Below are positions 4,586 to 26,504 of a stretch of DNA of 64,000 nucleotides, one piece after another (position 1 is the stretch's first letter; each line of letters starts with the position of its first letter). The stretch covers positions 124,001 through 188,000 of the forward strand of contig JALWPV010000032.1 of assembly GCA_027080775.1 (NCBI GenBank). Direction: 5' to 3'. Origin of the DNA: Acidilobaceae archaeon (GTDB lineage Archaea > Thermoproteota > Thermoprotei_A > Sulfolobales > Acidilobaceae). The position numbers were made by a program, and so were the translations under genes. The notes below the pieces were generated by a model. The model saw only the letters and a program-made list of their open reading frames with translations. It was not told where the DNA came from and ran no database searches.

Positions 4586-6232
4586 CTAGAACTCGAACTT
4601 GCCGCTCTCCTCCTCGCCCTTCTCCTTCTTCTCCTTCTTCTTGGGCGGTGCAGCGGCTATGATGTCGTCGATCTTCAGTATCGAGGTGGCCGCCTCGCTG
4701 GCGCTCTTAATCACCTGCTTCTTGACTAGCACGGGCTCGTAGACATTGATCTTTATCATGTCGTGCTCTATCTTGCCCTCGAGCACGTTTACGCCCGCGT
4801 GCTTGAAGCCCTGGTTGTGGAGGGTGCTCAGCTGTAGTAGGGTGTCGAGGGCGTCCATACCGGCGCTCTCCGCCAGCACGGTGGGTATGACTTCTAGGGC
4901 CTCGGCGTAGGCCTTTATGGCTAGCTGCTCCTTGCCCTTCACGGTGTTAGCGTAGTCCTTGAGCCTCTCGGCAAGCTCTATCTCCACAGCGCCGCCGCCA
5001 CCTACTATCTTGGGCTCCCTCATTATGTTCCTGAGGGCGTGGAGGGCATCCATGATGCTCCTCTCGGCCTCATCGAGTAGCATGTCGTTGGCTCCGCGTA
5101 GCAGTATTGTTACGCTTCTCGGGTTCTTTGCTCCCTCTATGAAGATCATCTTGTCTTCTCCTACCTTGCGCTCCTCCACTAGCTCTGCGTAGCCTAGGTC
5201 CTCGGGCTTCAGGTCCCTGATGCTGGTCACGATCTTCGCGCCAGTCGCCTTAGCTATCTTCTCTATGTCGCTCCTCTTAACCCTCCTCACGGCCATGATC
5301 CCGTGCTTCGCTAGGTAGTGCTGCGCAACCTCGTCAATACCCTTCTGAGTAATCACCACATTAGCACCAGTAGCAGCAATCTTCTCCACCATCTCCTTGA
5401 GTAGCCTGGTCTCCTCCTCCAGGAACCTGTCGAGTTGCTCTATGTCGGTCACCCTTATCTTCGTGGTTATGTCGGGCTTCTGTATCTCTAGTGGGGCGTC
5501 TAGCACGGCTATCTTGGCGTTCTCAACCCTCCTAGGCATGCCTGGGTGCACGACCTCCTTGTCGATGACGACACCCCTTACGAGCTTGCTGTCCAGCAGG
5601 CTGCCACCCTTCTTCTTCTCGATCTTAACATTGTCTAGGTCGACGTTGTAGGTGCCGTCGGGCCTCTTCTCCGCTATGATCTTAATGGTCTCGACGACCA
5701 TGTCTATAATCTTCTCCTTCTCAGGCCCGTGACCTATGTACTTGCTTGCTAGAGCGGTCTCCGCTATCCTCCTGAGGGTAGCCTCGTCCTCGACGTTTAT
5801 CGGCACTGCTATCTGGTCTAGGAGCTCCAGGGCCTTCTCCTGGGCCTTCACGAAGCCATCAATTATCACGGAGGGGTGTATGTTATCGTCGAGGAGCTTC
5901 TCGGCCTTCTCGAGTAGCGTGCCAGCGAGGACGACCACGCTTGTGGTGCCATCGCCTACCTCGGCATCCTGGGCCTTAGCCACCTCAACTAGGAGCTTGG
6001 CCGCCGGGTGCTGGACCTCCATCTCCTTCACTATGGTGGCGCCGTCGTTCGTGACGGTTACATCGCCGAAACTGTCAACAAGCATCTTATCGAGGCCCCT
6101 GGGGCCTAGGCTGGACTTGAGCAGCTCAGCTAGGACCTTAGCCGCGAGGATGTTGTTCCTCAGCGCCTCTCTACCGTAGGTTCTCTGGGTGCCCTCCTTC
6201 AATATGATTACTGGCACTCCACCCATAGCCAT
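4586..6232 (-). CDS. ths: Thermosome subunit (group II chaperonin)
   Basis: ATP-dependent protein-folding chaperonin subunit that forms a two-ring barrel with a built-in lid. All hallmark elements are intact in 548 residues: [11 protein letters not shown] (about 40-50), NDGATI (62-67), GDGTTS (93-98), the apical-domain segment with [14 protein letters not shown], and the C-terminal equatorial segment with [12 protein letters not shown]. The C-terminal tail is charged ([19 protein letters not shown]) rather than the Gly/Met-rich tail of many thermosomes. Start ATG at 6232. It is divergent from the TtuA-like gene with a shared TATA-like element at 6296-6304. I cannot tell from sequence alone which paralogue class (alpha or beta) it is. 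A strongly diverged paralogue lies at 18167-19789. Confidence 0.97.
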
Positions 6233-8190: not shown

Positions 8191-8769
8191 TTGAGGGTTA
8201 GGGACTCGCTGCGTGTCAGGCTGAGGCTCGTGGCCTATGACTACCTGGTGGAGCCGGTGAGGGTCCTGGCCTTGAAGGATATAGGGCCTCTCCCGCTGCC
8301 GCAGGGAGCGGTTAACGTGAGGAGGGGAGACGAGCTAGACGTGCCCCGTTGGCAGGCTAGGGAGCTTGAGAGGCTGGGGCTCGTGGAGGTTAGGGCCCGC
8401 GGCCTGGATATTGACACCGTAAATATGTACCACTACAAGGAGAAGAGGGGGCAGGCCGCCAACCAGCTCCAGAGCATACCTCAGGATTTCTACATGGCGG
8501 CTAGGGAACTCATAGAGAGGCTTGATGAGATGATCAGGGAGAGCCCGTCGACCATGCTGATCAGGGACAGGGAGGTCGTCGAGAAGAACCTCCTAGACAT
8601 AGCTGAGACTAGGCTGGTTAAGCTACTCAGGCTCGCCGCCAGCGGCGGGGAGGAGTTCAGGGAGAGGATGACCCCTGAGGAGTCCATAGCCTTCGATGCT
8701 ATTAGGGCTGTCGTTGAGGTGTTCAGAGATTATGTCAAAGGGCTAGCAGGGGGTGGTGGGAGTGGCTGA
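8191..8769 (+). CDS. gins23: GINS replication complex subunit Gins23
   Basis: Subunit of the archaeal GINS complex, which joins MCM and Cdc45/RecJ-like protein in the CMG-type replicative helicase. The 192-residue protein has a small beta-rich B domain first (about residues 15-70: PVRVLALKDIGPLPLPQG, then RRGDELDVPRWQARELERLG) and the helical A domain after it (about 80-185), the B-then-A order of Gins23. Start TTG at 8191 follows a CGGGGGCC stretch. The gene overlaps the MCM start by 17 nt, and gins23-mcm adjacency is an established crenarchaeal arrangement seen in Sulfolobus. This context is a main reason for the call, since GINS sequences are poorly conserved. Confidence 0.87.
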   Translation: MRVRDSLRVRLRLVAYDYLVEPVRVLALKDIGPLPLPQGAVNVRRGDELDVPRWQARELERLGLVEVRARGLDIDTVNMYHYKEKRGQAANQLQSIPQDFYMAARELIERLDEMIRESPSTMLIRDREVVEKNLLDIAETRLVKLLRLAASGGEEFRERMTPEESIAFDAIRAVVEVFRDYVKGLAGGGGSG

Positions 8770-11700
8770 GAGCAGCCTCGAGTTGGATTATGCTGAGAGG
8801 TTCAAGGATTTCCTCAGAAACTTTAGGGACCGCCTCGGGGAGCTGAAGTACCTTCAGAGGCTCCGGAGGATGATAAGCTTCAATCAGTCTAGCCTAATCG
8901 TTGACTACCCCGACCTCTACAGGTACGACACGGAGTTGGCCGAGGCCGTGGTGGAGGACCCGGATAGGTTCATACGCAGCGCTGGCGACGCCATCAAGGA
9001 GCTGGTCGCCCAGGAGGACCCGGAGTACGCTGAGAAGAAGAGGAGGTTCGTGCCCAGGTTCGTGAACCTCTTCGAGACCGTTAAGATCAGGGAGATACGC
9101 TCCGAGCACATAGGTAGGCTCGTCCAGATAGACGGCGTTATAACGAGGATGCTACCAGTGAAGAGCAAGCTTGTGAAGGCTGTATTCCTCCACGACAAGT
9201 GCGGGGGCACATTCACCTGGCCTCCTGGCGATGAGGAGCTTCAGGAGGACAAGCTGGAGAGGCCCCCCTATTGCCCCCTCTGTGGTGAGAGTGGGGGACG
9301 CTTCATACTGGTGAAGGAGAAGAGTACCTACATAGACTACCAGAAGATCGTAGTGCAGGAGAGGCCCGAGGACGTTCCGGGAGGGCAGATGCCTAGGAGC
9401 ATAGAGGTCAAGCTGACCGGTGACCTGGTCGACACGGCGAGGCCCGGGGATAGGGTGCAGATAGCTGGCATAGTCAGGCTGGAGCCGGCCTCGCCTAGGA
9501 GCACCCTCTTCGACATCTACATTGAGGCGAATAGCATCAGGGTTAGCGAGAAGGAGCTGGAGGAGGTATCCATAACTAGGGAGGACGAGGAGAGGATACG
9601 CCAGCTTGCCCGCGATCCCTGGGTGAGGGAGAGGATCATAGCCAGCATAGCCCCCAGCATCTACGGGCACTGGGACCTCAAGGAGGCCATAGCACTCCTA
9701 CTCTTCGGCGGCGTCCCCAAGGTGCTGCCGGATGGTACCAGGATAAGGGGCGACATACACGTGCTCTTCATTGGAGACCCTGGTATGGCGAAGAGCCAGC
9801 TCCTCCAGGCGGCTGCCCGCGTGGCTCCAAGGGCGGTCTTCACGAGTGGTAAGGGCAGCACGGCGGCGGGCCTCACGGCGGCGGTCCTCAGGGATCCGAA
9901 GACGGGGGAGTGGTACCTCGAGGCTGGCGCCCTCGTGCTCGCCGATGGTGGCGTGGCTATAATTGACGAGTTCGATAAGATGAGGAGTGAGGACAGGACT
10001 GCGATACACGAGGCGATGGAGCAGCAGAGCTATCACAGGGACTTCGAGATACTGCTCGGGGATGGGAGGAAGGTTAGGATAGGCGAGCTGGTAGACTCCC
10101 TCATGGAGAGCCGCCGGGCCGAGGTCATAAGGGGCAGGGAGACCGAGGTGCTGAGGGTTAACGACATCTACGTGGTAGCCTATGACCCAGAGGCCAAGAG
10201 GACTGTCCTAGCCAAGGCTGATAGGGTAAGCAGGCACAGGGCTCCGAGGAGGCTTGTAAGGATAAGGTTCTCCAACGGCAGGGAGGTAACCGTGACCCCC
10301 GAGCACCCGATCATGGTATGGACGGGCGGCGCCATCAGGGAGAAGCCCGCCTCCGAGGTGAGGCCGGGCGACATCGCAGTGGGCGTGAGATTCTACGGCA
10401 TACCAGAGATCTACAATACCGACCCTAAGACAGCCGGTGTAGCGGCGCTCCTCGCCGCAGCCACCGAGCCCCCCAGCTTCGAGGGCGGGTGCCTGGAGGC
10501 CACCCTGCCGGGGGCCAGCGGCCTCTGCGTCGAGGTGGCCCGCGAGACGCTCTCGGGCATCGAAGCGGAGTATAGTGTGGAGGAGCTGGATGGGGGCTGG
10601 TGCAGGCTCCGGATCTGCGGCAATGTCGCTGAGGCCCTCGAGGCCCTAATGCCGGAGCTCCTCTGGTCCCGCGGAGAGGCCAGGATTCCGGCCAGGATCC
10701 TAGCAGCGAAGAGGGAGGCGAGGAGGGAGTTCCTGAGGGTCTACTTCCAGCTGAGGGGCCGCATAGGCCCCGATGGCCTCGCCCTAGGGGCTAGCGGTAG
10801 GGGGCTCGCGGAGGACTTACAGGACCTCCTCTTGGACTTCGGCGTCTACAGCGTGCTCGACTGCTCCCGCGGCTCCTGCAGTCTCCGCGTCCAGTCCCCA
10901 CGCGACGCTGAGGTGCTCCTATCCATAGCGGGCCTAGAGGGCGGCTGGGCTCTAGCCTGGCCCCAGGGGGGTGAGTGGGACGAGCTGCCACCGGACGCCT
11001 CGAAGCGCCTTGTGGACGCCGCGGCCCTCGCGGGCGTCAGGGGCGTGGCCTCTACCCCCGGGGGAGGCCTTGATAGGGGTATGGCGTCGAGGCTCCTAGG
11101 CGAGCTTCGCGAGCGGGGGGCCGTTGGTGGCGTCGAGGATCTTGAAGGTATAGTAGGGGGCAACATCAGGTTCCTGCGGGTCGAGTCCGTTGAGGTCGTC
11201 GAGAATAGGGACTCGGAGTGGGTCTACGACGTCACGGTGGAGCCCTACCACCTCTTCGTCTCCCACGGGCTGGTCCTTCACAACACAATAAGCATATCGA
11301 AGGCTGGCATAGTGGCGAGGCTCAACGCTAGGGCTAGCGTGCTCGCTGCTGGGAATCCCAAGCTGGGCCTCTATGACCCCACGAAGAGTTTCGTGGACAA
11401 CGTTAACCTGCCCCCAACGATACTCTCGAGGTTCGACCTGATATTCGTGTTAAGGGACATACCCGACAAGAGGCGTGACGCCGAGCTAGCGGCGTACGTA
11501 CTCGAGGCCCACACGGGCAGCGATAAGATAAGGCCCGACATAGACCCCCAGCTCCTCAGGAAGTACATCCTATACGCCAGGCGCTACGTGAGGAGGATCC
11601 GCCTCGCACCCGAGGCCAAGGAGATGCTCAAGGACTTCTTCACTAGCATGAGGGCGAGCGTGCTATCCAAGATGCAGGGGGAGGGCCCCATACCGATACC

Positions 11701-12100
11701 GATAACGACGAGGCAGCTCGAGGCGCTCATAAGGCTGACGGAGGCCCACGCCCGCATGGCCCTAAGGGAGGAGGCTGGCCCCGAGGACGCCGCCGAGGCT
11801 ATCAGGCTGACGCTCAGCTTCCTGACGAGCGTTGGCTTCGACGTGGAGACCGGGGTGGTGGATGTCGGCATGCTAGCCTCGGGGGCGACGTTCAGGATGA
11901 GGACTATAATGAGTACAATCCAGGATATAATAAAGGAGATGCAGAAGGAGAGGGGCTGCGTGCCCCTCAAGAGGATCCTGGAGGAGGCGGAGGCCCGCAG
12001 GATCCCCAGGGAGAAGGCGCAGGAGGCCGTCGAGATAATGCACAGGAGGGGGCTGATATTCGATAAGGGGGGCAACCAGTGCTACGCCCTAGTGCCGTGA
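8753..12100 (+). CDS. mcm: Replicative helicase MCM, interrupted by an intein
   Basis: Hexameric 3'-5' DNA helicase of the archaeal replisome. The precursor is 1115 residues; removing the 419-residue intein leaves about 696, the usual MCM size. It has an N-terminal OB domain with a zinc site (DKCGG...CPLCG, about residues 145-185), Walker A GDPGMAKSQ (about 341-349), Walker B IDEFDKM (about 404-410), and the arginine-finger segment LSRFDLIFVLRD after the intein. A C-terminal winged helix ends the protein (RRGLIFDKGGNQCYALVP). The intein sits after EAMEQQ and before TISISKAG, in the ATPase core, so splicing is needed for activity. GTG at 8753, 8756 or 8762 are all possible starts; 8762 (MAESSLELDY) is the one least overlapping gins23. 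The stop overlaps the convergent M42 gene by 12 nt. Confidence 0.97.
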   Translation: MVGVAESSLELDYAERFKDFLRNFRDRLGELKYLQRLRRMISFNQSSLIVDYPDLYRYDTELAEAVVEDPDRFIRSAGDAIKELVAQEDPEYAEKKRRFVPRFVNLFETVKIREIRSEHIGRLVQIDGVITRMLPVKSKLVKAVFLHDKCGGTFTWPPGDEELQEDKLERPPYCPLCGESGGRFILVKEKSTYIDYQKIVVQERPEDVPGGQMPRSIEVKLTGDLVDTARPGDRVQIAGIVRLEPASPRSTLFDIYIEANSIRVSEKELEEVSITREDEERIRQLARDPWVRERIIASIAPSIYGHWDLKEAIALLLFGGVPKVLPDGTRIRGDIHVLFIGDPGMAKSQLLQAAARVAPRAVFTSGKGSTAAGLTAAVLRDPKTGEWYLEAGALVLADGGVAIIDEFDKMRSEDRTAIHEAMEQQSYHRDFEILLGDGRKVRIGELVDSLMESRRAEVIRGRETEVLRVNDIYVVAYDPEAKRTVLAKADRVSRHRAPRRLVRIRFSNGREVTVTPEHPIMVWTGGAIREKPASEVRPGDIAVGVRFYGIPEIYNTDPKTAGVAALLAAATEPPSFEGGCLEATLPGASGLCVEVARETLSGIEAEYSVEELDGGWCRLRICGNVAEALEALMPELLWSRGEARIPARILAAKREARREFLRVYFQLRGRIGPDGLALGASGRGLAEDLQDLLLDFGVYSVLDCSRGSCSLRVQSPRDAEVLLSIAGLEGGWALAWPQGGEWDELPPDASKRLVDAAALAGVRGVASTPGGGLDRGMASRLLGELRERGAVGGVEDLEGIVGGNIRFLRVESVEVVENRDSEWVYDVTVEPYHLFVSHGLVLHNTISISKAGIVARLNARASVLAAGNPKLGLYDPTKSFVDNVNLPPTILSRFDLIFVLRDIPDKRRDAELAAYVLEAHTGSDKIRPDIDPQLLRKYILYARRYVRRIRLAPEAKEMLKDFFTSMRASVLSKMQGEGPIPIPITTRQLEALIRLTEAHARMALREEAGPEDAAEAIRLTLSFLTSVGFDVETGVVDVGMLASGATFRMRTIMSTIQDIIKEMQKERGCVPLKRILEEAEARRIPREKAQEAVEIMHRRGLIFDKGGNQCYALVP
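10028..11284 (+). other. Intein within MCM (degenerate LAGLIDADG endonuclease)
   Basis: In-frame protein intron of 419 residues (MCM precursor residues 426-844). It begins with Ser (SYHRDFEILLGDG), carries block B GREVTVTPEHPIMVW with the conserved T-x-x-H, and ends with blocks F/G (WVYDVTVEPYHLFVSHGLVLHN); the +1 extein residue is Thr. The splice residues (Ser1, His-Asn end, Thr+1) look competent. The middle has the size of a homing endonuclease, but the second LAGLIDADG-like helix reads FLRVYFQLRGRI, with Gln and Arg where the motif has Asp, and the first reads GVAALLAAATEP. It should therefore splice but probably cannot cut DNA. Confidence 0.93.
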
Positions 12101-17585: not shown

Positions 17586-17634
17586 CCCTCCCTAACCCTA
17601 TCATCCCCGGCAGCTCTTGGGGGGTAGCGCTTCT

Positions 17635-17889
17635 TTGCAGGGCACAACACAGCCCGGGGCTAGGGAGAGGGTGCTGGCCGAGCTAGAGTTAGCCCTGAGG
17701 GAGCTCGAGGACGCGGAGGCCCTCCTGAGGAGGCTCGAGCCCTCAAGGCGCGCCTACATAGGCTTCGCGGGGCGCCTCATGGTAGAGGTTACCGTGGCCG
17801 AGGCACTCGACTACGTTGAGGAGAGGAAGGCGGGGCTCAAGGCGCTACTCGAGAAGCTGAGGAGGGAGGCCCCCCTGGGGGAGGGCTAG
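17635..17889 (+). CDS. Mini prefoldin-like coiled-coil protein
   Basis: An 84-residue protein built as helix, short beta-hairpin, helix. RVLAELELALRELEDAEALL is followed by AYIGFAGRLMVEVTVAEALD and a second amphipathic helix. The hairpin closely echoes the C-terminal half of the neighbouring prefoldin alpha (GGRLSVEATIDEA against AGRLMVEVTVAEA). That suggests descent by duplication with shortened coils. Start TTG at 17635 follows a GGGGGGT Shine-Dalgarno-like run at 17618-17624; TTG at 17617 is an alternative. It lies 50 nt after pfdA on the same strand, so cotranscription is likely. Its stop shares CTAG with the convergent membrane gene. The exact role is unknown; an alternative prefoldin subunit is an inference. 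Confidence 0.7.
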   Translation: MQGTTQPGARERVLAELELALRELEDAEALLRRLEPSRRAYIGFAGRLMVEVTVAEALDYVEERKAGLKALLEKLRREAPLGEG

Positions 17890-18143
17890 GCGCCCCCGCT
17901 CCGTCTCCCCTTTATCTCCCCGGCGAGCCTGTAGGCTAGGAAGAGGGCTATACCAGCCTCCACGACAGTAAATATCGGATCCCTCCTGAGGTACGCGTAG
18001 AGGGTTAGCACGACCGTGCCGCTTAGGTTAAGGCTGTAGAGCCACACCCAGCTCTTGACCACGAAGCTCGCGAACACAAGCACCATCCCAGCGAGTCCCA
18101 GGGCCTCGAGCCACCCGATCACAGAGGGATCCTCTAAAGCCAT
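17886..18143 (-). CDS. Small membrane protein, possibly CBU_0592/YgjV-like
   Basis: An 85-residue protein with three hydrophobic helices (about residues 9-30, 32-52 and 55-75) and a basic C-terminus (EIKGRRSGGA). The segment LYSLNLSGTVVLTLYAYLRRDP resembles the small CBU_0592-like membrane domain found across prokaryotes, whose function is unknown. Start ATG at 18143. It lies 23 nt downstream of the chaperonin-like gene on the same strand and probably shares its transcript. Confidence 0.6.
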   Translation of the reverse strand: MALEDPSVIGWLEALGLAGMVLVFASFVVKSWVWLYSLNLSGTVVLTLYAYLRRDPIFTVVEAGIALFLAYRLAGEIKGRRSGGA

Positions 18144-18166: not shown

Positions 18167-19789
18167 CTACCTATGGGGTTCCCTGATCTCCCTGAGGTGG
18201 GCGCCTCGCCGGTGCACGCTTATGCCGGTAACCCTCAACAGCGTCATTGCGAGGCTCACGCCCACCTCGGCCGCGGCCCTCCTGATGGGGTAGGGGTCGA
18301 GTATGCCCCTAGCGGCCAGGTCCTCGTCTACGCGCTTCTCGTACTCGTTCACCCCCGCAGCCCAGCGGCCCTGGGCGTGGAGGGCCTCGAGGGTGGCTAG
18401 GGCCTCGTGGGGTTTTAGGGCCGAGTGCCTGGCTAGGGTGGAGGGTATGACCTCTATGGCCTCGGCGAACGCCTCCATGGCAAGCCTCTTCTTCCCCCCG
18501 GCCCTGAGGGCCTTCTCCCTTATCCTGAGGGCGGCCTCCACCTCGGGAGCCCCGCCCCCGGGGAGGGAGCGTGGATCAGCCGCGTAGGCCTCAAGGCCCC
18601 TCGCTGCCATGCGGGCCTCCTCGTAGGCCGTGTCAACGGCATACCAGGGCCCCCGGATGACTATGGTGGAGACGCACCCCCCGCGGGCCTCTAGTATGGT
18701 GTAGTACCTGTCCCCGAAGGCCCTCTCCTCTAGACGGTCGATGACTCCCACGTCCCCGGGGCTGGCGTCTTGGAGCCTCGAGAGGAGCCTCGCGCCCGAG
18801 GCAGTCGCTATGAGTCTCGCCTTCTCGGGGGGGATCCTGCGGAGTACTAGCACGCCCCTCCTCTCCAGCTCCTCCTCCAGTCCGGCCTCGAGGCCCTTGA
18901 CGTCTACGAGGAGCCCGACCCCGAGCTGGGAGAGCTTCTCCACGGCCCAGAGGTGGCTCCTCGAGAGCTCCTCCCCAAGCCTGAGAGCGGCCTCAGGGTC
19001 GCTTGCAACGAAGTTGTAGCCCTCATACCTGAGGTCCACGTAGAGCTTCTGGTCCACAACGGCAACCCTCAGGGGACCCACCTTGAGCCTCGGCATGCCC
19101 GGCCTCGAGAGCCTCTTCCTCACCACCACGCCCTCCACGAGCGTGGAATCGGAGAGGGAGCCCCCCTCGATCCTCTCGAAGCCCACCACCTCCGAGAAGG
19201 GCTTGCCGCAGCCGCTGGCCTTGTAGCGCTCGAGGGCCCTGCAGAGGAGGGGCTCCAGGATCCCCGAGGCCTGGGACCCGGTCAGCAGGGCCCGGGCGGC
19301 CGTGGCGCAGTCAAGCCTAGGCGACCTACCCGCCAGCTCCTCGAGAGTCTCGACGTACACTCTATAGGCGGCACTGTAGCCCTCGAGTATCGTCGAGGGC
19401 CTGAGGCCGTAATCCCTTTCGAGGCTCAGAGCCCTCTCGTAGAGCTTGTACGCCAGCAGCAACGCCGTCTTGACGCCATCCCCGTATAGCCTCCAGAGCC
19501 CCCTCGCTGCCTCCCAGATCAGCTCAACCAGCGGGTTATCCTTGGAGGCCTCGTTGAGGAGCAGGTACACCTTAGCCGTCGGCACGACGTCGCCGTACTT
19601 GCCGTGCACGAGCTTCAGGGCCCCCCTATAGCCCAGGCTGGAGCCCGAGAGGTAGCCGTAGACCCAGAGGATCCTCAGTATAGCCTTCCTAGACTCCCCA
19701 TCGCCCACGTAGTCGCTGCCACCGACAGGTACAACGACCTTAAAGGGGCCCTTCTCATGCGCCGCGGCTATCTTCAAGGGCCACACCAA
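18167..19789 (-). CDS. Strongly diverged group II chaperonin paralogue
   Basis: A 540-residue protein that aligns by eye along its whole length with the thermosome subunit at 4586-6232. Shared stretches include SSLGYRG (against SSLGPRG), GGSLSDSTLVEGVVVRKRLS... PGMPR (against [20 protein letters not shown]... PGMPR), and PGGGAPEVEAAL. AMEAFAEAIEVIPSTLA likewise matches [17 protein letters not shown], and WAAGVNEYE matches [11 protein letters not shown]-site loops are changed: NDGATI reads PTAKVY (70-75) and GDGTTS reads GDGVKTA (103-109). The C-terminal tail is basic and lacks the thermosome's charged tail. I infer a chaperonin-fold protein with altered or no ATPase activity, possibly incorporated into mixed rings or acting alone. 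Start TTG at 19789 (GTG at 19786 also possible) follows GAGAGG. It lies close to two prefoldin-type genes. Confidence 0.82.
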   Translation of the reverse strand: MVWPLKIAAAHEKGPFKVVVPVGGSDYVGDGESRKAILRILWVYGYLSGSSLGYRGALKLVHGKYGDVVPTAKVYLLLNEASKDNPLVELIWEAARGLWRLYGDGVKTALLLAYKLYERALSLERDYGLRPSTILEGYSAAYRVYVETLEELAGRSPRLDCATAARALLTGSQASGILEPLLCRALERYKASGCGKPFSEVVGFERIEGGSLSDSTLVEGVVVRKRLSRPGMPRLKVGPLRVAVVDQKLYVDLRYEGYNFVASDPEAALRLGEELSRSHLWAVEKLSQLGVGLLVDVKGLEAGLEEELERRGVLVLRRIPPEKARLIATASGARLLSRLQDASPGDVGVIDRLEERAFGDRYYTILEARGGCVSTIVIRGPWYAVDTAYEEARMAARGLEAYAADPRSLPGGGAPEVEAALRIREKALRAGGKKRLAMEAFAEAIEVIPSTLARHSALKPHEALATLEALHAQGRWAAGVNEYEKRVDEDLAARGILDPYPIRRAAAEVGVSLAMTLLRVTGISVHRRGAHLREIREPHR

Positions 19790-19852: not shown

Positions 19853-19900
19853 TTGGATACACCATCCAGGCACCCCCTTACCTATCCACTAGAAATACCT

Positions 19901-19947: not shown

Positions 19948-21315
19948 ATGCCGTTGGAGTCAAAGTATTTTGAGCCCTACTTTGAGACCATGCCCCGTGA
20001 TGAGCTCAGGGAGCTCCAGAACAAGAAGCTCCGCCACCAGGTGCTCAGGGGTTACACATTCGCTCCAGCCATAAAGGAGCTCTTCGACGAGCTAGGCGTG
20101 AGCCCCAGCGACATCAGGACCGTGGAGGACCTCCAAGAGAAGATACCCGTAATGTACAAGGACAAGGTCAGGGAGAGGAGGGCGAGGACCGGCGACCCCT
20201 TCGGCGGCTACCTGGCCGTGCCCGAGGAGGAGGTCTACACCGTGCAGCACAGCACGGGCACGACGGGCCTCCCCACGTTCATAGCGAAGACAAAGAAGGA
20301 CATAGAGGGCTGGATAACCAGGGAGTACGCCCGCCACGCTTGGGCGGCTGGCGCGAGGCCCGGTGACAGGATACTGGTATGGGGCTACTACTGGCACGGC
20401 TGGCTGAAGGACGGCAATGACCGGGGCTTCGCCGCCACGGGAGCGCAGGTGTGGGAGTTCAGCAGCATGCCTACCCCCACAGACATAGAGAGGCTCCACA
20501 TGATAGCTAGCGCCGTCAAGTTCAACGGAGTCGACCACGGCACGCTACCAATGTTCCGCTGGATGGACTACGCTAGGGCCCGCGGCATAGACCCCAAGGA
20601 GGCCTACCATAGCCACGAGTGGAAGTTCATACGTACAGCTGGCGACATGCTGACCGACCCTGTTAGGAAGTACAGCAGGGACTTCTGGGGCACCCTACAC
20701 CTCGACGCTAGTGGTGGCGGCGACTGCGTCGTGGCGACGGCGGAGAACCGCGACCAGGTGGAGACCGGTAACACCAAGGGCCTCATGATATGGGAGGACA
20801 TGTTCTTCGTGGAGGTCGTCGACCCGAAGACCCATGAGGTCGTAGCTGACGGCGAGAAGGGCGAGTACGTGATAACGCCCCTGGACTACGAGGCCCTCGT
20901 CTACCTGCGTTGGGACTATGAGGATATGGTGATAAAGGACTCCTCGAAGGATGTCAGCGGCCGCACCCACGCCACCCTGAAGTACCTGGGCCGCACGATA
21001 TTCGGCGCGATAGTGCGGGGCAAGCACATAACACAGAGGGACGTGGAGGAGGTGTTGTACAGCTTCCCGGAGACCATACTGAAGCCATGGCAGTTCATAA
21101 GGAGCAGCAAGGACCTATTCAAGGAGGAGGACAAGCTCCGCATCAGGGCGGTCTACGACCCCAACCTGACCAAGGATCCCGAGGAGCTGAGGCAGAGGAT
21201 AGCCAAGGCCCTCGAGGAGAAGCTCGGCGTTCCCACGGAGGTCGAGTGGATACCCGAGGAGGAGGTCAGGACCCTGCCACACAAGGTCTACAAGCTATAC
21301 GTGAGGAGCGGTTAG
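19948..21315 (+). CDS. PaaK-like CoA ligase (phenylacetate-CoA ligase family)
   Basis: Adenylate-forming enzyme predicted to activate an aryl or acyl carboxylate to its CoA thioester through an acyl-AMP intermediate. The 455-residue protein has the PaaK layout: helical N-terminus, P-loop STGTTGLPT near residue 105, an adenylate-binding region with DASGGGDC, and a small C-terminal domain with KYLGRTIFGAIVRGKHIT and a lysine-bearing tail (LPHKVYKLYVRSG). Start ATG at 19948 gives a nearly leaderless transcript from the TATA-like box at 19913-19924. The acid used is unknown. A second PaaK-like gene is at 23744-25111. Confidence 0.85.
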   Translation: MPLESKYFEPYFETMPRDELRELQNKKLRHQVLRGYTFAPAIKELFDELGVSPSDIRTVEDLQEKIPVMYKDKVRERRARTGDPFGGYLAVPEEEVYTVQHSTGTTGLPTFIAKTKKDIEGWITREYARHAWAAGARPGDRILVWGYYWHGWLKDGNDRGFAATGAQVWEFSSMPTPTDIERLHMIASAVKFNGVDHGTLPMFRWMDYARARGIDPKEAYHSHEWKFIRTAGDMLTDPVRKYSRDFWGTLHLDASGGGDCVVATAENRDQVETGNTKGLMIWEDMFFVEVVDPKTHEVVADGEKGEYVITPLDYEALVYLRWDYEDMVIKDSSKDVSGRTHATLKYLGRTIFGAIVRGKHITQRDVEEVLYSFPETILKPWQFIRSSKDLFKEEDKLRIRAVYDPNLTKDPEELRQRIAKALEEKLGVPTEVEWIPEEEVRTLPHKVYKLYVRSG

Positions 21316-21395
21316 CAGAGCCTAGCCCCCACTGCTCTGGTACCCTTACCCCCAATTTCTACGTCTTTTTAGATCAGCTCTAGGTCTTGTATGGG

Positions 21396-22958
21396 GTGAG
21401 TGCGGGGTTGCCGTCGAAGCCCTGGCTGAGGGTGTGGCCTAAGGGTGTGCCGCAGAGCATAGAGTACCCCGAGGAGCCCGTGTATGGCCCCGTCCTCGAG
21501 CAGGCCTCCAAGTCCCCCTCCCGCTGCGCTGTGGCGCAGGCTGAGAGCGGTACATGCTACACGTACGAGAAGCTTGTCTCCATGGCCAAGGGCGTGGCCG
21601 CGTGGCTCCAGGCCCGCGGCGCGGGCCCCGGCTCCCAGGTGCTGTACTCGGCCTTCAACACCGTCGAGGCCGCCGCCGGCCTCCTGGGTGTTTGGATGAG
21701 TGGCGCCTCGGCCGTCCTCGTGGACCCCCTCACGACGAGTGAGGATCTGCAGTTCCAGCTCGAGGGTAGGGGCATAAGGCTGGCGGTCCTCGCACCCGAC
21801 TTCTACGAGAGGGAGAAGGGGGTCCTCGCTGGAGTCGGCGTCGAGGAGGCCCTACTCCTGAGCCCCTACCACGAGACCAGCGGCGCCCCGAAGGCCTCGA
21901 CACTCGGCGAGGCCCTAGGCCTGGCTGGCGAGTGGAGGGAGCCCGAGATCAAGCCTAGGGAGGATGTTGGAGTGGTAATGTACTACTCCGGCATAGCGGG
22001 CCGCACGATGCAGACCCTCCACACCCACTTCGGGGCACTCTCATCGACGATAGCATACACTACCATGATGCAACTCAGGGGCCCCCCCAACTCGATGGTC
22101 GTTGCCCCCCTAACCCACATCCTAGGCCTCCAGGCCGGCCTACTCTCATCACTCTACTACGGCGGCACGGCAGTCCTCATGAGGAGGTGGAACCCTACGG
22201 TAGCGCTCTACGCCATAGCCTCCTGGGGGGTTAACTACCTCTCAGGAGCCCCCATGATGCACGAGGCCCTCCTAGCCGAGGCCAAGAAGAGGGGGCTACC
22301 ACCGGGCTGGTCCCTCGAGCTAGGCGTCTCGGGCGGCGCGCCCCTGAAGCCGGAGGTCCAGGAGGAATACTCCAAGGTGACTGGGGCGCCCCTCGTGCAG
22401 CTCTACGGCATGACTGAGACCTGGGTCGTCACATTCCAGCCGAGGCACCTGGCCCACGTGAAGGCTACCGTGGGCATTCCACTCCCCGACGTCGACGCCA
22501 AGATAGTTGACCCCGAGAGCCCCACGAGGGAGCTGGGCCTCGGTGAGACCGGTGAGCTGCTGATCAAGGCCCCCTGGGTTATGAAGGGCTACGAGGACGA
22601 GGAGGAGAACAAGAGGGCCTTCGTTGACTCCTGGATCAGGACGGGCGACCTGATGGTGATGGATGAGAACGGCCTACTATACTTCAGGGGGGTGAGGAAG
22701 AGGATGATAAAGTACAAGGCCTACCCCATATTCCCGAGGGACCTCGAGATCATACTTGAGAAGCACCCGGCCGTGGAGAAGGCTTACGTCTACGGCGAGC
22801 CACACCCAGACTACGGCCACCTGCCAGTAGCGAAGGTGGTCCTCAAGCCGGGCTACAAGGGCATGGTAACCCCCGAGGAGCTAATGGACTACGTCAACAG
22901 TAGGGTGGCATTCTACAAGAAGATAAGGAAGATAGAGATCGTCGACAAGCTACCCTAG
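21396..22958 (+). CDS. ANL-superfamily acyl-CoA synthetase-like protein, atypical
   Basis: A 520-residue AMP-forming synthetase homologue. The core is clear: LYGMTETWVV (adenine motif) and SWIRTGDLMVMDENGLLYF (ATP-ribose motif). Three features are unusual. The P-loop usually reading SGTTGxPKG reads YSGIAGRTMQTLHTH. The hinge segment reads RGVRKRMIKYKAYPIFP, with Arg where Asp is usual. The protein ends at KIRKIEIVDKLP, just before the C-terminal GKIxRR-type catalytic lysine motif. It may therefore have lost adenylation or use a partner's lysine. GTG at 21396 was chosen because TATA-like CTTTTTAGA at 21364-21372 puts initiation near 21393; TTG at 21387 is the alternative. It follows the PaaK-like gene by 80 nt. 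Confidence 0.82.
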   Translation: MSAGLPSKPWLRVWPKGVPQSIEYPEEPVYGPVLEQASKSPSRCAVAQAESGTCYTYEKLVSMAKGVAAWLQARGAGPGSQVLYSAFNTVEAAAGLLGVWMSGASAVLVDPLTTSEDLQFQLEGRGIRLAVLAPDFYEREKGVLAGVGVEEALLLSPYHETSGAPKASTLGEALGLAGEWREPEIKPREDVGVVMYYSGIAGRTMQTLHTHFGALSSTIAYTTMMQLRGPPNSMVVAPLTHILGLQAGLLSSLYYGGTAVLMRRWNPTVALYAIASWGVNYLSGAPMMHEALLAEAKKRGLPPGWSLELGVSGGAPLKPEVQEEYSKVTGAPLVQLYGMTETWVVTFQPRHLAHVKATVGIPLPDVDAKIVDPESPTRELGLGETGELLIKAPWVMKGYEDEEENKRAFVDSWIRTGDLMVMDENGLLYFRGVRKRMIKYKAYPIFPRDLEIILEKHPAVEKAYVYGEPHPDYGHLPVAKVVLKPGYKGMVTPEELMDYVNSRVAFYKKIRKIEIVDKLP

Positions 22959-23037: not shown

Positions 23038-23664
23038 TTAGAATGGATAGAACTCGCTCTCAATAGACCTCGTCAGTCTTAATATTAGCGAGGTCAGCTC
23101 GTCCTTGGTAACCCTGGACTTGGGGCCTATCTTGACGAGGGTGAAGAGGTCCCCGGGCAGGGATACGGGGAGCTTCTCGAAGCCGTACTTCATCACGGGG
23201 ACCTCCATTATGAACATAGCGTACACCCTGCACTCGTCACCGTAGCAGTCCCAGTAGTCAGGGTTACCCCTTATGAGCAGCACTTTATCATCGAAGAAGG
23301 GATCTGTCACCGTAGCCTCCAGCAGTGTCGAGCCTATGCCGTGGCGGCGCCACTTCCTGCTGACCTCAGTTGCTATGTCGTACACGTCCTCGAACGCTAT
23401 CTTCGACGGGAGACCCTCGAGTGTCCACTGGTAGGCAACGAGGAATCCTACTATCTCGTCCTCGTGGGTCGCTATGGCGACGTAGTCGCCCCTCTCAGCG
23501 GCCTTGGCGAGGGGCTCGACCCCCATAACCGGGTTTATGAAGTACCCGAAGCCCTGGGCGAGCTTGTAGCTCCTTATCGAGGCTGCATCACACCTCCTCT
23601 TGACCTCTATGTCGCCCCTGTCGCTCTTGATGACTCTGTAGACCTCGCAGGCCCCGTTCCCCAT
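23038..23664 (-). CDS. GNAT-family N-acetyltransferase
   Basis: Predicted acetyl-CoA-dependent N-acyltransferase of 208 residues. The GNAT core reads VAIATHEDEIVGFLVAY (strand pair) followed by the acetyl-CoA pyrophosphate loop in VSRKWRRHGIGSTLLEA. The C-terminal 60 residues are an addition with no motif I know. Start ATG at 23664, with a TATA-like TTTATTTAC at about 23700-23709 on the minus strand giving a leader of about 15 nt. Placed between the ANL gene and the second PaaK-like gene; a role in reversible lysine acylation of CoA ligases, known for bacterial acetyl-CoA synthetase, is only a contextual guess. Confidence 0.78.
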   Translation of the reverse strand: MGNGACEVYRVIKSDRGDIEVKRRCDAASIRSYKLAQGFGYFINPVMGVEPLAKAAERGDYVAIATHEDEIVGFLVAYQWTLEGLPSKIAFEDVYDIATEVSRKWRRHGIGSTLLEATVTDPFFDDKVLLIRGNPDYWDCYGDECRVYAMFIMEVPVMKYGFEKLPVSLPGDLFTLVKIGPKSRVTKDELTSLILRLTRSIESEFYPF

Positions 23665-23743: not shown

Positions 23744-25111
23744 TCAGCCCTTCCTCTTCCACTCGTGTACGACGTAGGTCTTCTTCCAGACGGGAGGCTG
23801 TATTGTGCCGGGTGGGGCGTACTCTACCTTGACGGGGACGCCTAGGTGCTTGGATAGCTTCTCCTCGAACCCCCTGGCCCAGGCGTCGGGGTCCTTGGGG
23901 GCCTCCTTGGGCTCTAGCCTAACGTAGAGCCTGTCGTGTTCTAGGCGTGTCTTCTTTATTATCTGGTAGTCCTTTATCTCGGGGTACTCCCTGACGACGG
24001 CCTCCACGTCCCATGGTAGTATGTAGTGGTAATGGCCGTCGAAGCCCTTAACCTTGACGAGCCACTCCTCCCTGCCTAGGACGCCGAAGGGGAACATGGG
24101 GTGGGTCCGGCCGCAGCCGCCAGGACCCTCTCGGTACTCCGCTATATCCTCCACGTTGAACCTGATTATAGGTAGGGTGTGGTTTATGAGGCTGGTAACG
24201 ACTAGCTCGCCTCTCTCGCCGGGGCCGAGGGGCTCCTTGGTGTCGGGGTCTATGATCTCGAACACTGCAGCGTCGAACCACCAGTGGTCGCCCTCGAACC
24301 ATGGGTCCTCGGACATCTCCGTGAAGGGTATCTCGCTGAAGCCGAAGAAGTCGAAGACGTAGTCTGTGTTGTAGATGTCCTGCAGCTTCTTCCTGACCTC
24401 CCTAACCAGAGGCTCGCCCGCAGTGTGGACGACCTCGAATGGCGGTTCTATGCCCCACTCCTCAACCATCATCCTCGCCAGGTGGTAGAGGCCGCTCGGC
24501 GTCCCGCCGACGACGGTTGGCCTCACCTCCTCTATAGTCCTCCTCGTTAGCTGGGGCATCGTGGCTATCGGCGCACTGCCGTGTGGTATCACCTTCATGC
24601 CCATCATCCAGGCGGTCTTGTAGAACCTGACGCCCCACGCGTAGTTGAAGTCCATTCTCCAGGCGTTGAGGTAGACGTCGCCGGGCCTCATCATCATAGC
24701 CCAGAAGTTCCTGGCGTTGAGGTCCCTGGCGTAGGCCTCCTCGGCGGGGCTCCACGTGTTGTAGGTTGGCCTCCCAGTCGTGCCAGTGCTCGTGGCTATC
24801 TTGTAGTGATAGCTATCCGGCAGGCCGGGATGGGAGCCGTAGGGTATGGGCTCCGTCTGTATCTTATGGCGCACGTCGTCCTTGACTATGAAGGGTATCT
24901 TAGGGAGGTCCTGGAGGGTCCTAATGTCATCGGGCTTGACGCCGGCGCTCTCCATGTGGTCGTGGTAGAATCTACTGTTCAAGTAGGCGAATCTCACTAT
25001 GTACCTCGTCTTTCTCTCGGTGAGTCTGACCAGCTCGTCCCAGGGCATTGTCTCGATGCGCTTGTCCCAGTAGAGGGGCCACTCCTTCCTCTTAGGGTCG
25101 GGCCTGGCCAT
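23744..25111 (-). CDS. PaaK-like CoA ligase, second copy
   Basis: A 455-residue member of the phenylacetate-CoA ligase family, diverged from the one at 19948-21315. The P-loop is STGTTGRPT (about residue 112), followed by FDFFGFSEIPF in the adenylate pocket region and VKGFDGHYHYILPWDVEAV in the C-terminal part. The tail is lysine-rich (VWKKTYVVHEWKRKG). I chose ATG at 25111 (MARPDPKRKEW), preceded by GGAGGAGGTG; the longer start at 25132 overlaps the upstream gene. The 94-residue gene ends only 5 nt upstream, so the two are probably cotranslated. Substrate unknown. Confidence 0.85.
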   Translation of the reverse strand: MARPDPKRKEWPLYWDKRIETMPWDELVRLTERKTRYIVRFAYLNSRFYHDHMESAGVKPDDIRTLQDLPKIPFIVKDDVRHKIQTEPIPYGSHPGLPDSYHYKIATSTGTTGRPTYNTWSPAEEAYARDLNARNFWAMMMRPGDVYLNAWRMDFNYAWGVRFYKTAWMMGMKVIPHGSAPIATMPQLTRRTIEEVRPTVVGGTPSGLYHLARMMVEEWGIEPPFEVVHTAGEPLVREVRKKLQDIYNTDYVFDFFGFSEIPFTEMSEDPWFEGDHWWFDAAVFEIIDPDTKEPLGPGERGELVVTSLINHTLPIIRFNVEDIAEYREGPGGCGRTHPMFPFGVLGREEWLVKVKGFDGHYHYILPWDVEAVVREYPEIKDYQIIKKTRLEHDRLYVRLEPKEAPKDPDAWARGFEEKLSKHLGVPVKVEYAPPGTIQPPVWKKTYVVHEWKRKG

Positions 25112-25116
25112 GGCCT

Positions 25117-25401
25117 TCACACCTCCTCCCACTTGACCCTCTTAACCTCGAAGTCTAGGCGACCGCCAGCGTAGGATCCTATCCTAGGCCACATCTCCAG
25201 GTCGGGGTCAGCCACGAAGTCGTTGCGGTACCCGTCTAGCTGGGCTACGATCTCCTTGAGGACGGGGAGTATCATCGTGCGGATCGGCAGGCTCGCGTAG
25301 GGGAGGCCTGCCTCCATAGCCTTCCTGTAGGCCTCCACAAGCCTCTCAGAGGCCTCCTCGAGGAGGCGTAGTATCTCAGACTCAGGGCCTGCCTCACTCA
25401 A
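25117..25401 (-). CDS. Unrecognised small helical protein upstream of PaaK-like gene
   Basis: I do not recognise this 94-residue protein. It is mostly alpha-helical (ILRLLEEASERLVEAYRKAM, then MILPVLKEIVAQLDGY), with an aromatic/acidic C-terminal segment (DLEMWPRIGSYAGGRLDFEV). It has no cysteines and no membrane segment. It lies 5 nt upstream of the PaaK-like CoA ligase in the same orientation, so it may be a partner or small regulatory subunit of that enzyme; this is inference. TTG at 25401 is the only sensible start. A TATA-like GATTAATTT near 25448-25456 on the minus strand is a possible promoter. Confidence 0.65.
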   Translation of the reverse strand: MSEAGPESEILRLLEEASERLVEAYRKAMEAGLPYASLPIRTMILPVLKEIVAQLDGYRNDFVADPDLEMWPRIGSYAGGRLDFEVKRVKWEEV

Positions 25402-25529: not shown

Positions 25530-26504
25530 TTGCGTATAGTGGACTTCCACCTGCACCTGCCCCTGAGCATGGCTGGCGGCGACGTCCACAGGGCCCTCCA
25601 CCTCCTCCTCGGGGAGATGGATGATGCAGGCGTCGATGTGGCAGTAGCCATAGCCATAGAGGCCAGCCCGGAGGTCGTGAGGAGGAATGTCACACCCGAG
25701 AAGCTACGCAACGCCATCCAGCCCCTGCTATACGACTGGAGGGCGCTAGGCCACCCCTCACTCTACAACGCCATGGTCAGGCCCCGCGAGGCCCTCGAGG
25801 ACCATCTGAGGCTCGTGGAGCGCCACCTAGCCAGGAGCGAGGACGTCGCCAGGGCTGCAGCGGCCTCAGGGGGTAGGGTGCTTGCTGTGGCAAGCTACTG
25901 CAGGCTGAATAGCGTAGAGGAATACATAGAGAGGCTCGAGAGGATAGCCTCGATGGGCCCCCTGATAGGGGTCAAGATCTACCCCACATTCCACTTCTTG
26001 AGACCCGACGACCCCAGCCTTGAGCCTCTGTACGACTACATGGAATCCAGGGGCCTGATACTCATAGTCCACACGGGCTGCGACCCCGGCATCTGGGAGC
26101 TCCCGGCCCTCTGCACGAAGGCAAGCCCCCGCTACCTCGAGCCCGTGGCTAGGAGGCACAGGGACCTCATGATAGTGGCCGCCCACATGGGTAGCTACAG
26201 CTACCTCTTCCCCGGCATATACTTCGCGGACGCCATACGCCTGGCTAGGGGCAACGATAACGTCTACCTCGACACGAGCGCCACGACGCTCCACCAGGTC
26301 AGGATTGCCCTCAACAAGCTGGGGCCCGAGAAGCTCCTCTACGGCAGCGACTATCCCTACTTCGAGGGCCTCCACATGAAGGATATAGTTGAGGCCTACC
26401 TTGCATTCAGGGTGCCGGAGAGTGTGAAGGAGAGGATACTCCACCTCAACGCCGAGGAGATACTGTCGAGGATAGGCGTCAAGCTAGCCCTCCCGCGCGG
26501 CTAG
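25530..26504 (+). CDS. Amidohydrolase-family (ACMSD-like) metal-dependent hydrolase or decarboxylase
   Basis: A 324-residue TIM-barrel protein of the amidohydrolase-2 type. The metal-binding N-terminal motif is VDFHLHLP. Barrel strands carry LIVHTGCDPG, VAAHMGSYSY, YLDTSATT and the conserved LLYGSDYPYFEG. This family includes aromatic-acid decarboxylases (ACMSD, gamma-resorcylate decarboxylase) and hydrolases, so a role on aromatic acids would fit the nearby CoA ligases, but the substrate cannot be read out. Start TTG at 25530. The last 21 nt overlap the convergent regulator gene. Confidence 0.82.
   Translation: MRIVDFHLHLPLSMAGGDVHRALHLLLGEMDDAGVDVAVAIAIEASPEVVRRNVTPEKLRNAIQPLLYDWRALGHPSLYNAMVRPREALEDHLRLVERHLARSEDVARAAAASGGRVLAVASYCRLNSVEEYIERLERIASMGPLIGVKIYPTFHFLRPDDPSLEPLYDYMESRGLILIVHTGCDPGIWELPALCTKASPRYLEPVARRHRDLMIVAAHMGSYSYLFPGIYFADAIRLARGNDNVYLDTSATTLHQVRIALNKLGPEKLLYGSDYPYFEGLHMKDIVEAYLAFRVPESVKERILHLNAEEILSRIGVKLALPRG

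Follow-up and report, generated by a model that had tools for sequence, protein, structure and literature searches.

A strongly diverged archaeal chaperonin paralogue with a replaced ATP pocket, encoded beside a CoA-ligase cluster and a candidate cobalamin-type operator

Chaperonins are usually regarded as ATP-driven machines. The stretch of 64,000 nucleotides from an Acidilobaceae archaeon analysed here (the window; contig JALWPV010000032.1) raises the question of what such a protein may do when its nucleotide pocket has been replaced, as it encodes, in addition to an ordinary thermosome subunit, a paralogue, referred to here as Q, in which most of the catalytic residues have changed.

18167-19789, minus strand: Q, diverged group II chaperonin paralogue, 540 aa from a TTG codon
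4586-6232, minus strand: canonical thermosome subunit used as comparison sequence, Cpn60_TCP1 638 bits

Alignment of the orthologues indicates that translation of Q probably starts at the next codon, GTG at 19786. The proposal of the initial annotation that this is a chaperonin-fold paralogue is borne out by a full-length match to the Pfam profile Cpn60_TCP1 (256 bits, E 8.2e-76, profile positions 6-485 of 490, cut-off 34.3), which lies far above chance, and by a predicted fold of the thermosome type; the best sequence matches in the PDB are also thermosomes (E 1e-56). AlphaFold2, supplied with a 27-row alignment of Q, its close orthologue, the window's canonical subunit and 24 viral thermosomes, returned a model with a mean pLDDT of 80 and a pTM of 0.77, a three-row alignment having given a pLDDT of 36.5 before the 24 viral sequences were added. 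The weak stretches of the model are the N-terminus, residues 52-83 (which hold LGYRG and TAKVYL) and the C-terminal tail. Foldseek matched it to 1q2v (TM 0.80/0.83), to Mm-cpn 3izi (0.82/0.87) and to 1a6d (0.80/0.86). The equatorial, intermediate and apical domains and the built-in lid are all present in the model, and in the alignment the intermediate domain carries a 9-residue deletion and no large insertions.

The host genome (1.78 Mb in 85 contigs, of high completeness) already has two ordinary thermosome subunits, which score 645 and 639 bits against Cpn60_TCP1, and Q is thus a third, strongly diverged paralogue. It shares 27-30% identity with the canonical subunits and 96, 69 and 66% with its orthologues, and it falls short of the NCBIfam thermosome cut-offs TIGR02339 (201.6 versus 671.1), NF041082 (191.6 versus 450) and NF041083 (184.8 versus 400). 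In the tree the branch of Q is very long and saturated and lies close to the subunit type encoded in the window; derivation from one identifiable canonical subunit was rejected, as on a saturated branch the parent copy cannot be named.

The two canonical genes have a history of their own. That of the window (4586-6232) and its counterpart on L037 (4417-6063) contain stretches of 97-100% nucleotide identity, the identity elsewhere being 50-70%. These identical stretches are gene conversion, a process known in archaeal chaperonins according to Archibald and Roger (2002), as cited in PMC9720267, and it may explain the assembly breaks inside the thermosome genes of several relatives. A thermosome gene of one relative (L017, G003:C11) is of one subunit type for its first ~390 codons and of the other type thereafter, a chimera that reflects either recombination or misassembly across a shared stretch. 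Elsewhere in the window, positions 8753-12100 hold an ORF for an MCM-type replicative helicase of 1115 aa with, on translation by eye, an apparent in-frame intein.

A profile built from the four Q orthologues gives them more than 1000 bits and canonical subunits less than 250. Of the 214 genomes of the order, four contained Q by this profile, and these all belong to one genus of Acidilobaceae; no further match was obtained among 398 genomes drawn from the phylum; a survey of 100 genomes of the class contained no other comparably diverged copy among the matches listed. In a second genus (G005) the contig ends ~94 bases into the gene upstream of PaaK1, the ligase gene described below, and the start of this fragment reads as the N-terminus of Q (profile E 8.5e-6). 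The orthologues occupy the same place in the related genomes, always head to head with PaaK1, and the two genes occur together in all five genomes (four of the main genus and the G005 fragment), which, being close relatives and several of them incomplete, represent few independent events. A viral origin of Q was rejected, as viral contigs contain no relative of it and viral thermosomes keep all the catalytic residues. About 30 viral contigs (L075-L106) do encode thermosome-like proteins; a scan gave 33 thermosome relatives, and the 24 that were aligned retain each catalytic residue checked.

The segments of Q that correspond to the ATP pocket are listed below. Counts refer to 25 comparison rows, that is, the alignment rows other than Q and its close orthologue, which include the 24 viral thermosomes. 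Canonical residues carry Mm-cpn numbers, which were assigned from motif positions rather than from a direct alignment.

19622-19636, minus strand: loop LGYRG for LGPRG, residues 52-56; Pro in 25/25 rows
19562-19579, minus strand: TAKVYL for TNDGAT, residues 71-76; N-D-G in 25/25 rows
19466-19483, minus strand: GDGVKT for GDGTTS, residues 103-108; T-T in 25/25 rows
19271-19282, minus strand: nucleotide-sensing loop TGSQ, residues 170-173; Lys in 25/25 rows
18605-18613, minus strand: RMA at catalytic Asp386, residues 393-395; Asp in 25/25 rows
18551-18559, minus strand: retained GGG of GGGxxE, residues 411-413; AGG in one orthologue

The proline of LGPRG is replaced by tyrosine in Q, and by tyrosine or serine in the orthologues (LGSRG in two). 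Asp60 has become Lys73, Thr93 and Thr94 have become Val106 and Lys107, and Lys161, the γ-phosphate sensor (PMC5220055), has become Ser172. At the position of Asp386 Q has Ala395 or, in another alignment, Met394, neither of which is acidic, within an RMAARG motif that is invariant in all four orthologues. Indeed the four proteins are identical at K73, V106, K107, S172, M394 and A395; at T156 they have Ala or Ser167. Thus, of the ATPase residues D60, D91, T93, T94, K161 and D386, Q keeps only D91, the aspartate of GDG (Asp104). The initial annotation had already recognized the LGYRG and GDGVKT loops and the retention of the GDG aspartate and of GGGxxE; its pairing of NDGATI with PTAKVY, however, was off by two residues, TNDGAT aligning with TAKVYL, and the changes at K161, D386 and T156 come in addition to those that it listed.

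The consequences of such changes are known from single mutants. The D386A variant binds ATP but does not hydrolyse it (PMC5019054). In the Thermoplasma acidophilum thermosome, T97V, a substitution of the second threonine of GDGTT, abolishes ATP binding, the D94K α-only complex has no ATPase activity, and mutation of D94 or D93 eliminates hydrolysis in the mutated subunit (PMC5983026). Because the catalytic residues are present in 25/25 of the comparison set and replaced in Q, and single mutants are already impaired, we strongly infer from these substitutions that Q has lost ATP hydrolysis; normal binding of Mg-ATP has very probably been lost as well.

Q is divergent to a cluster of CoA-ligase and associated genes.

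19948-21315, plus strand: PaaK1, phenylacetate--CoA ligase-like, divergent to Q; same 5/214 genomes of the order
21387-22958, plus strand: AMP-forming acyl-CoA ligase (PF00501, E 4e-59); syntenic
23038-23664, minus strand: acetyltransferase-like protein (weak AAC(3)-I-type match, E 0.0035); syntenic
23744-25132, minus strand: PaaK2, second PaaK-like ligase (NCBIfam paak, E 6.5e-44); syntenic
25117-25401, minus strand: 94-aa protein of the cluster, without family match; syntenic
25530-26504, plus strand: Amidohydrolase-2 family protein (PF04909, E 1.4e-29); syntenic
17886-18143, minus strand: 85-aa membrane protein, immediately downstream of Q; gene order shared by all three species

Beyond PaaK1 the cluster is complete in three of the five genomes, the contigs of the remaining two being too short to show all of it. 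The 85-aa membrane protein and Q probably form one operon. As a dedicated partner of Q this protein was rejected, being widespread in genomes of the family where no Q was found, and a prefoldin partnership was rejected because prefoldin genes adjoin Q in only the two closest of the four genomes. Next to these genes, at 17617-17889, a 90-aa prefoldin-β-like protein is encoded directly after prefoldin α; it scores 25.4 bits against a Pfam cut-off of 27.6.

The gap between Q and PaaK1 contains a palindrome.

19853-19869, no strand assigned: palindrome TTGGATACACCATCCAG, candidate cobalamin-type operator between Q and PaaK1; 4/4 genomes of the genus

This 17-base element (YTGGAY-N5-RTCCAG) is the best-conserved block of the gap; it was not found in the Q-PaaK1 gap of the second genus (G005). 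In its own genome there are five exact sites, one at the Q promoter and four others, all of which lie at cobalamin genes: three within a cobalamin cluster (cbiB, cobS, cbiS, cobY-like, cobT and btuF-like genes) and one preceding another btuF-like gene. The palindrome positions are L136 5383, 9344 and 11410, L137 3670, L142 1934, L144 4007 and window 19853. In relatives it precedes btuF-like genes (G003, G001) and, in G005, cobT and a methylmalonyl-CoA mutase gene. Chance was rejected as an explanation: in the 1.29 of 1.78 Mb searched, 11 controls with scrambled arms gave 0-4 sites, about one being expected, against the five found, four of them at cobalamin genes. Some hits inside coding regions of other genomes (G003:C105, G005:C194) resemble chance, and further hits fall at G003:C17, G001:C33, G001:C148 and G005:C144. 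The pattern suggests that Q, PaaK1 or both belong to a cobalamin-linked regulon, which B12 would control. The literature covered, subscription journals being outside its scope, describes no archaeal palindromic B12 regulon, and the palindrome may be a cobalamin operator of Acidilobaceae, perhaps an undescribed one. It could be argued, since the element sits between two divergent genes, that it serves PaaK1 alone and that Q is a bystander, a view that concerns regulation only and is compatible with the other readings of Q considered below. In three of the four genomes, however, a TATA-like stretch directly adjoins the palindrome towards Q, an arrangement also seen at cobS, at cobT and at the mutase gene, and we consider the bystander view quite unlikely.

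With these elements in hand, we tentatively favour, as a plausible reading to which we give somewhat less than even odds, that Q is an ATPase-dead, client-dedicated and ATP-independent holdase or adaptor, the client of which is linked to the CoA-ligase cluster or to B12. The three-domain scaffold with its built-in lid would have been kept while ATP hydrolysis was lost. Judging from the sequence, Lys73 and Lys107, facing the retained Asp104, could replace Mg-ATP and so fix a single conformation. Even without a nucleotide cycle such a scaffold could bind proteins and retain them, or associate with other subunits. A client-dedicated role is preferred to a general one because Q is tightly linked to a single gene cluster and to the operator; most likely the client would either be made by, or act together with, the divergent CoA-ligase genes, or be an enzyme of that regulon that depends on B12, and Q would hand it over to the ordinary thermosome. 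It should be emphasized that we infer both the adaptor role and the client, and that several observations stand against them. Why the CoA-ligase cluster would require a chaperonin of its own is not obvious; the palindrome, which the second genus lacks, could act on PaaK1 rather than on Q; the 73% of the genome of Q that was searched yielded no methylmalonyl-CoA mutase; and the prefoldin link, seen in two of the four genomes, is not general.

The main rival is that Q is an ATPase-dead third subunit of mixed thermosome rings, in which it would alter allostery or the cavity. Q does retain the N-terminal strand, the stem-loop GD and the lid elements; a third thermosome gene exists in Sulfolobaceae; and in T. 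acidophilum a hydrolysis-dead β subunit (D93K) still forms an α8-β8 ring, the overall activity of which is increased (PMC5983026). Against mixed rings are the identity of just 27-30% to the prospective partners, the loss in Q of the C-terminal IDDVI strand of canonical subunits, with a C-terminal tail that differs, and a pI of 9.0-9.6 compared with 5.4-5.7 for those subunits, which gives the proteins opposite net charge. Nor would a tie to a ligase cluster or to a B12-type operator be expected of a general ring subunit. We therefore regard mixed rings as unlikely, if a serious contender to the dedicated holdase or adaptor.

Q might instead act alone, as a homo-oligomer or monomer, in the manner of an ATP-independent holdase or of a redox or metal scaffold, and its invariant cysteines bear on this proposal.

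19208-19309, minus strand: Cys161 (19307-19309), Cys183 (19241-19243) and Cys194 (19208-19210); 4/4 orthologues
18674-18676, minus strand: Cys372, fourth invariant cysteine, intermediate domain

All four lie in the intermediate domain and occupy the same positions in the 4/4 orthologues, and neither canonical subunit of the same genome contains any cysteine, so that disulfides or a metal site can be envisaged. The cysteine content of Q (0.74%), however, is not unusual among proteins of the window, and a stand-alone function of this kind appears decidedly unlikely.

The initial annotation had described the subunit as inactive, slow or differently regulated. A slow or altered nucleotide cycle could be maintained through other residues, such as Glu391, which is invariant and lies one helical turn before the lost aspartate, and Asp104 of GDG and GGGxxE are indeed kept. 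Five essential positions have nevertheless gone together, including both phosphate-binding threonines and the γ-phosphate sensor, and single changes at such positions already abolish activity or binding (PMC5019054, PMC5983026). Inactivity is thus far better supported than slowness, and a surviving cycle is improbable.

Finally, the selection data concern the status of the gene itself. The dN/dS of Q in the two closest orthologues is 0.12 (NG86) or 0.06 (YN00), compared with 0.01-0.02 for canonical thermosome genes, and the columns invariant among the four orthologues comprise 50 of 64 in the pocket, the segments of which were picked by hand from known motifs, versus 241 of 462 in the remainder (Fisher p 5e-5). 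Because Q is under purifying selection and the pocket belongs to its best-conserved regions, the protein appears to have been repurposed and is not decaying. That Q is a duplicate on its way to becoming a pseudogene, as its very long branch might suggest, is contradicted by this constraint on the close pair and on the replaced pocket, and by an intact gene in four genomes, and was rejected as highly improbable.

A stably kept subunit with a selected, replaced pocket suggests that the chaperonin scaffold is useful without an ATP cycle outside eukaryotes also. Q offers a small, heat-stable test system for pseudo-chaperonins, which are now studied mostly through the human BBS proteins, and the common palindrome provides a testable hint at its client.

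How does Q compare with the systems already described? With the archaeal thermosome α and β subunits it shares full-length homology, the three-domain fold, the lid, the GDG aspartate and GGGxxE; in contrast to Q, with its pI of about 9, these subunits contain the catalytic, phosphate-binding and sensor residues. Within the same order, Sulfolobaceae likewise have a third thermosome subunit (γ), but its match to Cpn60_TCP1, at 555-569 bits, is over twice that of Q, and it falls inside the canonical tree. Methanosarcina acetivorans has five group II subunits (PMC5220055, PMC6420498), of which the extra subunits 4 and 5 are reported to group with CCT6 (PMC6420498); compared by description, these two resemble Q in being additional, diverged members of group II within a single lineage of archaea. 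The best profile scores of Q are to thermosomes and not to CCT8, the tree containing no CCT rows. In eukaryotes, MKKS/BBS6, BBS10, BBS12 and CCT8L are described as adaptors in the assembly of CCT clients (PMC5534436, PMC2846930). The suggestion that Q is a counterpart of the MKKS/BBS6 type holds to the extent that both are highly diverged group II paralogues in which the GDGT motif has changed, as in BBS6 and BBS12 (PMC2846930) and to GDGVK in Q. It does not extend to the rest of the architecture: the BBS proteins keep the Gly-Pro ATP-binding dipeptide (PMC2846930) and carry large insertions in the intermediate and equatorial domains (PMC5534436), whereas Q has Gly-Tyr or Gly-Ser and a deletion, and no BBSome is known in archaea. 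The resemblance is thus one of analogy. That Q is an archaeal, convergent counterpart of the BBS type, in the sense of a pseudo-ATPase that acts as an assembly factor reserved for a single metabolic system and is controlled in the same way as vitamin B12 acquisition, seems to us possible but rather unlikely; by analogy, Q may work like BBS6 and BBS12.
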